NCBI GenBank assembly: GCA_016793885.1
Contig: JAEUHE010000151.1
Span: forward strand, 62,001-126,000
DNA from: Verrucomicrobiales bacterium
GTDB lineage: Bacteria; Verrucomicrobiota; Verrucomicrobiia; Limisphaerales; UBA11320
Reading direction: 5' to 3'
DNA length: 64,000 bases
Of the stretch, positions 48,560 to 53,557 are shown one piece after another. The notes beneath the pieces are model-generated. The model was not told the origin of the DNA. It saw only the letters and a program-made list of their open reading frames with translations, and ran no database searches. A program made the translations under genes and the position numbers. Positions within the stretch are counted from its first letter, which is position 1, and the number at the start of each line of letters is the position of its first letter.

Positions 48560-49150
48560 TCAGTAGTCGAGCATCATCCGATCGATCCAGGTGGCTTGGT
48601 TGACTCGATCATTCACCAGTTTTTCCAAGGAGTCCGGTTGCGTGGGCAGGGGGTCATACAATCGAAGAGCCTTCAGCCAAGCGCACTCCTCGGCTGGCAT
48701 TTCAGGGTCGGTGTGTTCCCTCCGCAGCTCCGAGGCCATCTGGAAGAACATTTTGAGGCTACTCCTCAGTGCCGTGCGTTCCTGCCGGCGAAAAGCACGA
48801 ATGGTGTCTGGGTAGGGATGTCGGCGTCCGATGAGACTGCAAAATAAAACGTCATTTCGGAGCGCCTCACAGATTCGCTCGAGCGTGTAAACGCCGGTGC
48901 CGTAACTGAACGTCAGCACCGCCAGCAGTTCTGCTCCGCAGTGGGGACCGTCCTCGCGATGATTGTATTGGCGTTGAGTGAGCGTCCCGAGCGATCCCGT
49001 CGCCGCCTCTCGGGCCAGATGGGCTAGTCGGATACGCGGCGGAGGTGGCAGTACCTGCGGCTCGAAGGGGGAGCCCAGCTCTCTCCGTGCCGAATTCAAG
49101 ATTTGTCCGTCCGTTGAGGGGGGCTTTCCCAGGCATGCTGTGGCATCCAT
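48560..49150 (-). CDS. Stand-alone DUF772-like transposase N-terminal domain (probable IS remnant)
   Basis: 196 residues. The central part, CGAELLAVLTFSYGTGVYTL then RRHPYPDTIRAFRRQERTAL, matches the N-terminal DUF772 domain of IS1182/IS5-type DDE transposases. Full transposases are about 450 residues; the DDE catalytic domain is absent, and the frame ends in an unrelated-looking tail (TQPDSLEKLVNDRVNQATW). No terminal inverted repeats or target duplication could be seen around it. It may be a truncated insertion sequence or a retained DNA-binding domain. It sits between the PQQ/heme operon and the NRPS gene, which are read away from it, so it could mark an insertion point. Confidence 0.6.
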   Translation of the reverse strand: MDATACLGKPPSTDGQILNSARRELGSPFEPQVLPPPPRIRLAHLAREAATGSLGTLTQRQYNHREDGPHCGAELLAVLTFSYGTGVYTLERICEALRNDVLFCSLIGRRHPYPDTIRAFRRQERTALRSSLKMFFQMASELRREHTDPEMPAEECAWLKALRLYDPLPTQPDSLEKLVNDRVNQATWIDRMMLDY

Positions 49151-49468: not shown

Positions 49469-52400
49469 ATGTTCGTGAATCGACCAGAAGATTCCTTTTC
49501 CGCGGAGCATCCTTTGACCCCGATGCAGCGTGGCATGCTGTTCCACTCCGTCCTAGCTCCGGAGTCGGGTGGGTACATTCAGCAGGTGGTCATCCGGATG
49601 GAGGCGGTGGCTGATGAGTGCGCTTTCCAGAGCATATGGAATGAGGCCATCCGCAGACATAAAGTCCTGGGTGGCCGTTTTCAATGGCGCGGAAATTCCG
49701 ATGCACGGTTTGTGATCCACGGTGTCGCGCAAATTCCGTGGGCGGCGGAGGACCTCTCCCGGATGACCGAGCTGGAGCGAGACCAACGCCTGGACCGGTT
49801 TCTGGAGGAGGATCGCCGGCGTGGCTTCGATCTCACTCAGGCTCCCTTGCTTCGGGCCATGACGTTTCGCCTGAGTGCCGATGCCTCGGTTTTCGTGCTC
49901 ACGTTTCATCACATCCTGCTCGACGGAAGATCCCTGCGGGTCCTGCTCAAGGAGGTGTTCGGAATCTATGAAGCGCATCTTCGCGGGGAAACCAAAACGG
50001 TGGAAACCGGTTCGGCGTTCGCTGATTACGTTGAGTTTCTTCAACGGCGGGATCGCGATGCAGACCGGGCCTTTTGGACGAGGAAGCTCGCCGGGTTTCG
50101 TGCCGCGAACGAGTTTCCTGGTTGGTTGAACCCGGCCGAAGGCGCGCGCAGAACTCTCGGGACGAGGGAGGCGACTGTGGTTCTTAGCCGGCAGTTCAGC
50201 GACTCGCTTCGAGCCCACGCGACCTCCGTCCAGGTGTCTCTGAACAACGTTTTCCAGGCGGCGTGGGCTTTCCTGGTTCAGATGTACAGTCGGGACGACG
50301 ACGTCGTCTTCGGAGTGGTGAGATCGTGTCGGTCGTCCGGACTGCCGGCGGGGGAAGGTGCGGTAGGTTTGCTGATCAACACGGTTCCCCTGCGCACTGC
50401 GCTGCAACCCGAACTTCCCTGGGCTGAGTTCCTGCGTGCGGTGAGAGCCGCGTGGCAGGAGTTGCGGCCTTACGAACATGCGGCCCTTGAGGACATCGAG
50501 GCTTGGAGTGAGATTCGGCCGGGCGCCTCCCTCTTCGGCAGCATTTTGATGTTCGAGAACTATGAGTTGGCGGAGGATCTCCGTCGAGATGATGGCATGT
50601 GGACGGAACGGAGCGTGAGCCTCCTGGAGCGAACGAACTTCCCGTTGACGATGTCGGTATATGCCGGAGATCGGGTCCAGTTGAAGTTGGAGTTCGATTC
50701 TCAACGAGGCCACCGGGGTTGGGCGGATCGGGTTTTGCGACGGCTTCAGTGGATTTTGGAACAGGCCCAGGCGCAGCCTGCTCAATGCCTGTGCCAGTTC
50801 AGCCTGGTCCCGCCTGAGGAGCGCGGTGAATTGCTGGCTCTCAGTGCCGGTCCGGTCCGGCCGGAGTATCAGGGCCTCAGTTATCTCCGGCGCTTCGAAG
50901 CGCAGGTGGCTCGTTCGCCGGAGGCTGTGGCTGTCGTCAGCGGTGAGGATTCCATGACTTACCGGGCGATGGACCTTCGATCGAATCAGCTCGCTCGACA
51001 CCTCGCGAAGCTGGGGGTGCGATCGGAAGTGAGAGTCGTTGTCTATTTGGAGCGCGGAATGGACACGGGAGTGATCCTCCTGGCAATCTGGAAAGCCGGC
51101 GGGGCATTCGTTCCGCTCGACCCTGCCAGCCCGGCGGCGCGTTCGGAATATCAGATCTTGGACTGTGGCGCGCCGGTCTTGGTGACACAATCCGCGCTGC
51201 TCGGCAGCCTGCCTGCATACTCCGGCATCAAGGTCGTCATCGATCGGGATTGGCAGCAGATTTCGGCTGAGCCAACCGAACCGTTAGGCCTGCCCAGTGA
51301 TCCCGATCAGCTGGCCTATGTGATCTACACCTCCGGAACTACGGGAAATCCCAAGGGCGTTGAGTTGCTTCATCGGGGGTTGTTAAACCACAACTTGTTC
51401 ATGGTTGATTGCTGGGCCTTGACTCCCGCGGATCGAGTCCTGCAGGTCTGCTCCCTCAGCTTTGATGTCTCGCTTGAGGAGATGTTCCCCACCTGGCTTG
51501 CGGGCGCGACTTTGGTCGTGGCTCCGCGCGGTCGGATTCTTCCCGATCGCCTGTTCACCGACCTGATTGGCGAACAGCGCATTTCGCTTCTCGATCTGTC
51601 CACCGCGTTCTGGCAGGAGTGGGTTCTGGAACTGGCGCGTTCGGGTGAAGCGTTGCCCGGATCGGTGAGGTTGGTGATTGTGGGGGGGGAGAAGAGCAGC
51701 GCTGCGTCGGTGGCGCGGTGGCGGCAGTTGGCTGGACCGGGGGTGAGGTGGATCGACTGCTATGGCCCGACCGAAACCACCATCGGCGTGACTCTGTTCG
51801 AGCCTGATGTTGACGCGGGAGCGGGCAAGCCCCGGGGTGGCGAATCCATCGGTCGGCCGATAGCAAACTCCTTCATCCGCATCGTCGACCGTTGGGATCG
51901 CCTTGTTCCTGCTGATGTGCCAGGCGAACTGCTGATCGGGGGTGTGGGCCTAGCGCGGGGATATTTGAACAGCCCGGAAAAGACGCAGAGAGCGTTCATC
52001 GAGCTCCCCCTTGCCGGGCAGGAAAGCGAGCGCCTTTACCGTTCCGGAGATCTAGTCCGTTGTCGCGAGGATGGTAATCTGGAGTTCTTGGGGCGCATTG
52101 ACTCTCAGGTGAAACTCCGAGGATATCGGATTGAACTTGGAGAGATCGAAGCTCGTTTGATGCAGACAACGGGTGTTTACCAAGCCGTGGTCAGGCTGCG
52201 GAAGCTCGACGGTGAGCAGCATCTCGTTGCGTATGTGATGCCTGCCGCCACCAGTCTGCGATCAGAGGTTTTGAAGGCCGATTTGGAACGGAGTCTGCCG
52301 GCCTATATGGTCCCTTCGTTTTGGGTGATGCTGGATCGGCTGCCGATGACCACGGGCGGCAAAATCGACGAGGACGCATTGCCTGCGCCTTCCGCGCAAC

Positions 52401-53557
52401 CGGAACGCATCGGCCCTCTCCCGGAAAGTCCCACGCGGGAGTTGGAGACCCAGCTTCGTCAGATCTGGATGGAGACCTTGGGCAAGCGGCACATCGCCTT
52501 CGATGATGACTTTTTTTCACTCGGAGGACATTCCTTGCTGGCGGTCCGTCTTGTGAGCCGAATTCAGAGTCGGCTGGGCTGGAACTTGCCGCTGGCGACA
52601 CTGTTCAGCGCTCCGACCATCGCCCAGATGGCCAGTTGGATACGGGATCAGGGGAACGTTCGAAGTTGGTCCTCGCTGGTCCCTATCCAGCCTCTGGGGA
52701 GTCGGCTTCCATTTTTTTGTGTCCACGCGGCTGGAGGTAATGTCCTTTTCTATCGCGACCTGGCCCATGCACTCGGTTCGGATCAGCCCTTTTATGGACT
52801 CCAGGTGGAGCGAACTGCGTCCGGTTTACCGATGAAGCGGTCCTTTGAGCAGATGGCTGAGCGCTACATCGCGGAGATGCGATTGGTCCAGCCTAGAGGT
52901 CCTTACTACCTTGGGGGAGCGTCGTATGGCGGGGTGATCGCCTGGGAGATGGCCCAGCAATTGGTACAGACGGGCGAGACCGTCGGGTTGCTCGCGCTTT
53001 TGGATACTTATGGCCCATCGTATCCCCGTTATCCGGCGAGCCTGGGGACGTTGCAGATCCAATGGCTGAAGGGACTGCGACGGTTTCAGCTGCACGCACT
53101 GAATCTCCGACTGCTCCCCGGCAGCTCCCGGTTGGGGTATGTTCGGACCAAGTTCCAGCAGCTTATTCTACAATTGCGGCGACTGGGACTTCCGCGGCTG
53201 CGCCTCTTCGGCAGGACTGTGAGCGGGTCCGCCTCAGAGCCGACGGGCTTTGAGGAGGCGGATTCGATGCAAGACTGGATCCAGGTCGCCTATGACAACT
53301 ACGTGGTGAAACCCTATCCGGGAAGAGCCACCCTGTTTCGAGCTATCCATCAACCACTGGGTGCGATCCCCGATGATCACCTGGGGTGGAAACCGTACAC
53401 CCCGCAAGGGATGGAGATCGTTCCGGTGGTTGGCTTTCATGGGAGCCTCGTGGTGGAGCCCTGCGTGGATGATCTTGCTCGAGAACTCTCGAAGCGGCTG
53501 GCGGTCTCGGGCAGCAGGGATGAATTGACTCTTGGCGAGGCAGGGTCGAGATCGTGA
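49469..53557 (+). CDS. Single-module non-ribosomal peptide synthetase (C-A-PCP-TE)
   Basis: 1362 residues from ATG 49469 (MFVNRPEDSFSAEHP); a TTG at 49442 is the alternative. The condensation domain (about 10-430) has LTPMQRGMLFHSV and the catalytic FHHILLDG near 146-153. The adenylation domain (about 465-970) has AYVIYTSGTTGNPKG, FDVSLEEMF, CYGPTETT, YRSGDLVR, LRGYRIELGEIE and GGKIDEDAL with the late lysine. The carrier protein (about 990-1065) has DDFFSLGGHSLL, with the phosphopantetheine Ser near 1022. The thioesterase (about 1080-1360) has GGASYGG (Ser near 1152), LLDTYG and GFHGSLVV (His near 1324). Starting with a C domain means it needs a donor from outside, so it may acylate or dimerise one amino acid. 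No MbtH, phosphopantetheinyl transferase or transporter is adjacent. Confidence 0.95.
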   Translation: MFVNRPEDSFSAEHPLTPMQRGMLFHSVLAPESGGYIQQVVIRMEAVADECAFQSIWNEAIRRHKVLGGRFQWRGNSDARFVIHGVAQIPWAAEDLSRMTELERDQRLDRFLEEDRRRGFDLTQAPLLRAMTFRLSADASVFVLTFHHILLDGRSLRVLLKEVFGIYEAHLRGETKTVETGSAFADYVEFLQRRDRDADRAFWTRKLAGFRAANEFPGWLNPAEGARRTLGTREATVVLSRQFSDSLRAHATSVQVSLNNVFQAAWAFLVQMYSRDDDVVFGVVRSCRSSGLPAGEGAVGLLINTVPLRTALQPELPWAEFLRAVRAAWQELRPYEHAALEDIEAWSEIRPGASLFGSILMFENYELAEDLRRDDGMWTERSVSLLERTNFPLTMSVYAGDRVQLKLEFDSQRGHRGWADRVLRRLQWILEQAQAQPAQCLCQFSLVPPEERGELLALSAGPVRPEYQGLSYLRRFEAQVARSPEAVAVVSGEDSMTYRAMDLRSNQLARHLAKLGVRSEVRVVVYLERGMDTGVILLAIWKAGGAFVPLDPASPAARSEYQILDCGAPVLVTQSALLGSLPAYSGIKVVIDRDWQQISAEPTEPLGLPSDPDQLAYVIYTSGTTGNPKGVELLHRGLLNHNLFMVDCWALTPADRVLQVCSLSFDVSLEEMFPTWLAGATLVVAPRGRILPDRLFTDLIGEQRISLLDLSTAFWQEWVLELARSGEALPGSVRLVIVGGEKSSAASVARWRQLAGPGVRWIDCYGPTETTIGVTLFEPDVDAGAGKPRGGESIGRPIANSFIRIVDRWDRLVPADVPGELLIGGVGLARGYLNSPEKTQRAFIELPLAGQESERLYRSGDLVRCREDGNLEFLGRIDSQVKLRGYRIELGEIEARLMQTTGVYQAVVRLRKLDGEQHLVAYVMPAATSLRSEVLKADLERSLPAYMVPSFWVMLDRLPMTTGGKIDEDALPAPSAQPERIGPLPESPTRELETQLRQIWMETLGKRHIAFDDDFFSLGGHSLLAVRLVSRIQSRLGWNLPLATLFSAPTIAQMASWIRDQGNVRSWSSLVPIQPLGSRLPFFCVHAAGGNVLFYRDLAHALGSDQPFYGLQVERTASGLPMKRSFEQMAERYIAEMRLVQPRGPYYLGGASYGGVIAWEMAQQLVQTGETVGLLALLDTYGPSYPRYPASLGTLQIQWLKGLRRFQLHALNLRLLPGSSRLGYVRTKFQQLILQLRRLGLPRLRLFGRTVSGSASEPTGFEEADSMQDWIQVAYDNYVVKPYPGRATLFRAIHQPLGAIPDDHLGWKPYTPQGMEIVPVVGFHGSLVVEPCVDDLARELSKRLAVSGSRDELTLGEAGSRS

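Follow-up and report, generated by a model that had tools for sequence, protein, structure and literature searches.

The module and its described counterparts

Single-module non-ribosomal peptide synthetases (NRPSs) with the domain order condensation-adenylation-carrier-thioesterase (C-A-PCP-TE) include SrfA-C and EntF. SrfA-C needs a partner that ends in an E domain; EntF needs an aryl-carrier partner. Starter C domains of lipopeptide synthetases stand first and have no upstream peptidyl donor (Rausch 2007, PMC1894796; Crz-C1, PMC11342130). They were first recognised as deviating C domains that are always first in the assembly line, and the known ones share ancestry with LCL, not DCL, domains (PMC1894796). 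DCL domains such as McyB C1, BacC, PvdL and TycB1 carry the C1 motif PLTPMQxGMLFH, in which the channel position is Gly, and have Trp after HHxxxDG. The A1 domain of the anabaenopeptin synthetase ApnA (PDB 4d4g) activates Arg, or Arg plus Tyr or Lys, and opens a multimodular synthetase.

The window, a stretch of 64,000 nucleotides (G000:C151:62001-126000), comes from an 8.7-Mb draft genome of 274 contigs that is 95.7% complete; by its gene content, the organism probably belongs to the Verrucomicrobiota or a close phylum. Its NRPS gene (49469..53557; this and all features within it are on the plus strand) is an uninterrupted ORF for a protein of 1362 aa, starting at ATG 49469 (alternative TTG 49442). 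The protein is identical in domain order to SrfA-C and EntF and similar in size; neither an E-terminated nor an aryl-carrier partner is seen for it. Five Pfam domains follow in order: Condensation (1.7e-73), AMP-binding (7.4e-81), AMP-binding_C, PP-binding (4.8e-16) and Thioesterase (1.2e-25). The C domain (PF00668, residues 15-456) is located at 49511..50836 and the A domain (residues 476-974) at 50894..52390; the latter also matches TIGR01733 (6.4e-125) and has the A3 motif YTSGTTGNPKG. The carrier domain (PF00550; 52451..52642) contains LGGHSL, with the phosphopantetheine Ser at 52532-52534. The type I thioesterase domain (PF00975 and PDB matches; 52691..53494) contains GASYGG; its catalytic set consists of Ser 52922 (GxSxG) and, by motif, likely Asp 53003 and His 53438. 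The catalytic motifs of C, A, PCP and TE are all intact on one chain, which is what defines a single-module NRPS. The GC3 of the gene is 0.684, inside the range of the neighbouring genes.

A Condensation-model search of the genome gave 11 matches on seven contigs, and this protein is the sole NRPS on its 144-kb contig. The single ORF, the Pfam order and the lone position support the initial annotation, which described a stand-alone C-A-PCP-TE module. A larger NRPS operon just beyond the window is ruled out by domain searches of the contig and flanks; no further A, C or TE domain was found in the window or in the 18 kb flanking it on each side. The neighbouring genes encode PQQ-like, HEAT/cytochrome c, DUF1501 and sulfatase proteins, and their annotation agrees with the earlier statement that no MbtH, phosphopantetheinyl transferase (PPTase) or tailoring gene is adjacent. 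No acyl-donor gene is seen adjoining the NRPS gene. No MbtH was found in the whole genome; the one Sfp-type PPTase (273-aa frame) is located on contig C167, not beside the NRPS gene.

Searches of four congeners, all drafts that are 80-94% complete, did not find the NRPS gene. Flank genes are present without it in three of the four, and in the congener G002 the two flanking blocks sit on different contigs; thus, as far as the drafts show, the gene occupies a junction particular to this genome. A protein search of the genome contigs found no close ortholog elsewhere. The nearest relative, at 52-54% identity, is a fragment of 472 aa at a contig end in G001; it is without the pocket region and has different neighbours.

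An ORF on the minus strand (48560-49150) is weakly similar to IS1182 transposase (E 9e-4). Since a homolog adjoins the same PQQ gene in the congener G001, this ORF is no evidence for transposon delivery of the NRPS gene.

The same genome encodes a second lone C-A-PCP-TE protein (L056:8210-12310, G000:C103; 1367 aa, code DIENVGSVTK), whose C domain has no recognisable HHxxxDG and a very long branch. It also encodes a free-standing 494-aa condensation-like protein (L097:6672-8153, G000:C31) with HQLIADG in place of HHxxxDG; this is a possible in-trans partner.

Adenylation pocket and likely substrate

Alignment to GrsA, with the sequence checked against 1amu, gives the ten-residue code DVEDIGCIGK: D235, V236, E239, D278, I299, G301, C322, I330 and G331 at 51464..51787, and K517 at 52361. 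The GG of VIVGGE aligns with GrsA A301-G302, which places Ile and Gly at 299 and 301. The initial annotation was right on the Asp-Val-Glu start, Cys322, Ile330 and Gly331; its Val/Val at 299/301 was one residue off, and it left out position 278, which is Asp on realignment. The pocket was consequently described as unfamiliar. This is explained by the misalignment; the code is near both the published Arg consensus and codes that have been experimentally linked to Arg.

The consensus for Arg-activating domains is D-A/V-E-D-I/V/L-G-A-V/I-T/D-K, and in a survey that included 37 Arg domains, Glu239 with Asp278 is part of the pattern by which Arg codes cluster (PMC12283262). DVEDIGCIGK matches this consensus at 8 of 10 positions, Cys322 and Gly331 being the differences; by this comparison the pocket comes near to having a confident common code, contrary to the initial reading.

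In ApnA A1, the codes are DVEDIGAIEK in Arg-only strains, DVEDIGGIEK where Arg is activated with others and DVEDIGIIAK where it is activated with Tyr (PMC5311044); DVEDIGCIGK differs from each at two positions. ApnA A1 is also the best PDB match among single-A-domain structures (396 bits over 500 aa). It shares E239 and eight of the ten code positions with the window gene, and D278 is common to the window gene and some Arg genotypes. In contrast to the window gene, which has Cys322 and Gly331 and forms one module only, ApnA A1 has Ala, Gly or Val at 322 and Glu or Ala at 331.

Positions 331 and 278 are reported to be important for Arg/Tyr bispecificity in ApnA A1, and Cys322 and Gly331 fall at positions reported to affect its specificity (PMC5311044), which counts against the Arg reading. 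Mixed specificity is possible because Gly occupies position 331, which is tied to bispecificity. Given the match at 8 of 10 positions to the consensus and to the ApnA A1 Arg code, Arg is the likeliest substrate, perhaps alongside Lys or Tyr. Judged by its code, the pocket itself is ordinary and of a known type.

Condensation domain and the Arg-type branch

The C1 motif of the C domain, LTPMQRGMLF (49514..49543), is DCL-like; in a register taken from motif alignment, Gly takes the place of the channel Arg of LCL domains (compared with PMC8097023). The window gene shares this Gly, and its clade, with the DCL domains. The catalytic His motif HHILLDGR (49907..49930) is followed by Arg, while DCL relatives have Trp at this position, and no E domain precedes it. 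C domains with HHxxxD[G/A] then Arg are referred to here as Arg-type, and those with Trp as Trp-type.

Among PDB chains, the C domain matches McyB (255 bits), BacC (231 bits) and PvdL (210 bits); matches to McyA, Txo1/2, DhbF and LgrA reach at most 96 bits (the DCL and LCL labels of these chains are in part presumed). Profile scores differ by a small gap, with 301 bits for DCL versus 276 for LCL. In a first tree of 84 C domains, the domain groups with DCL references and first-module C domains of the same order. In a second tree, centred on Arg-type domains, it lies in a 22-row branch (support 100/99) nested in the D-clade with McyB, BacC and PvdL, and is separated from the LCL rows with 100/100 support. 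All 22 rows are from the same order and class as this genome. A classical LCL elongation domain is rejected by both bit scores and trees; the choice between starter, LCL and DCL, raised in the initial annotation, thus falls on the D-clade, in a first-position Arg-type branch.

The domain is one of the more diverged sequences in this branch, where its inner position is not fixed by the tree, and its motif SGGYIQQ has no Asp where the branch typically has one (SGVDIEQ). In an alignment of 14 branch members, the second His, the Asp and the Arg of the catalytic His motif do not vary; L273, a related protein found later, has Ser where the branch has Arg. The branch profile has a match in 31 of 320 genomes of the order, some of the weaker matches being Trp-type. 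A limited literature search found no description of the branch.

All branch members stand at the N-terminus of their proteins; downstream of them, Leu and Thr codes predominate, alongside some Gly, Orn and Lys-like ones. Where at least 1.9 kb of sequence was visible before an N-terminal C domain, the gene immediately upstream was an NRPS gene for 1 of 22 Arg-type domains (including L273 and the window gene) versus 7 of 8 Trp-type domains (Fisher p = 3e-5, which is optimistic because relatedness is ignored and several rows come from one genus). The sole Arg-type exception is L236, and the protein before it has a TE of its own at the end. Among the eight Trp-type rows, L061 is LCL-like; without it the count is 6 of 7. 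The window C domain is first in its protein, with no other NRPS on the contig, as is typical of Starters. The context of a DCL domain was not found; there is no E domain upstream to feed it and no E-terminated NRPS in the draft genome.

A similar C domain and a TE are also combined in the one-module proteins L106, L236, L272 and L273. The nearest analogue of the window gene is L106:9916-13836 (G168:C123), a lone C-A-PCP-TE whose code, DAEDVGTIVK, is Lys/Arg-like and whose C domain reads PHLLLDGR where HHxxxDGR is expected. L236 has the Orn code DVGEIGSIDK. L272:5920-9993 and L273:8015-12160 are one-module C-A-PCP-TE proteins with the unusual code DSHSGGFIYK and no NRPS neighbour visible. Arg-type first modules with a Leu code at L103, L105 and L101 adjoin glycosyltransferase genes (WecG with STAS domains at L103 and L105, GT4 at L103 and L101); their products are perhaps glycosylated or surface-linked lipopeptides.

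Proposed working and alternatives

The protein may be a one-module NRPS that works on its own, from chain start to release, as an N-acyl-arginine-type synthetase; the chances of this are about even. The A domain would activate a basic amino acid, with L-Arg the likeliest choice, Lys a possible one and Tyr a possible side substrate, and load it onto the PCP, whose Ser would be primed by the Sfp-type PPTase. The front-position C domain would then join a non-amino-acid acyl donor, conjectured to be an acyl-CoA or acyl-carrier supplied in trans, to the alpha-amine. The TE would free the N-acyl-arginine-type product, with hydrolysis or cyclisation as conjectured modes of release. Domains, motifs, pocket, branch and context are read directly from the sequence, and the amino acid is deduced from the code. 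An N-acyl amino acid had already been suggested in the initial annotation; it is also the predicted product here, from C-domain phylogeny and context.

The gene could instead encode an orphaned terminal subunit, which, like SrfA-C, is supplied in trans with an aminoacyl or peptidyl chain of D configuration by an NRPS whose gene lies elsewhere. The best matches of the C domain among solved structures are DCL domains, and the Trp-type C-A-PCP-TE proteins L152 and L160, from other phyla, follow subunits with a terminal E-like domain. However, none of the NRPS proteins examined in this draft genome has a C-type domain in the E position after A-PCP or ends in PCP-E, the contig holds no other NRPS, and Arg-type domains, to which this C domain belongs by its motif, are without an upstream NRPS. 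The missing E-terminated partner and the motif weaken this account, which is unlikely. Since the domain belongs to a front-position branch of the D-clade, has the Arg motif and follows the upstream-gene pattern of Arg-type domains (1 of 22 versus 7 of 8), it is probably chain-initiating and N-acylating rather than part of an orphaned module.

Iterative use as in EntF, with an aryl or acyl starter coupled to the amino acid and several such units oligomerised or cyclised by the TE, is quite improbable. The domain order is the same, the TE resembles that of EntF, and EntF is among the curated-family matches; however, the score is below the family cut-off (391 versus 2400 bits), no aryl-acid or siderophore genes are seen nearby, and an Arg pocket gives no hydroxyl for ester-linked oligomers. 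The gene might also be left over from a rearranged cluster, silent or in decay and without a product today. Its absence from the four draft congeners, the flanks without it in three, the separate flanking blocks in G002 and the lack of cluster genes around it fit such a history, but with catalytic motifs intact, no frameshift and GC3 within the neighbours' range, this is very improbable.

The N-acylating reading bears on the whole branch. Starters were recognised as deviating C domains that are always first; because Arg-type domains are likewise always first and group with DCL domains, they appear to form a separate chain-initiating subtype, with an acyl donor likeliest. Known Starters have LCL ancestry, whereas the Arg-type branch lies among DCL relatives; the trees contained no reference Starter sequence, and this separation rests on the published topology (PMC1894796). 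A tentative proposal, given somewhat less than an even chance, is that the HHxxxD[G/A]R branch of the D-clade is a second, independently evolved kind of chain-starting C domain that takes non-peptidyl (acyl) donors; here, fusion with an Arg-type module and a TE would yield a one-protein N-acyl-arginine synthetase.

The architecture and pocket type are already known; the Arg-type C branch is the unusual part. If this branch starts chains, genome-mining tools that label it DCL would postulate an absent D-amino-acid donor in places where the real donor is an acyl group, and would misinterpret the assembly lines of this bacterial group. One-module members such as the window gene are small enough to assay and could settle the donor question.
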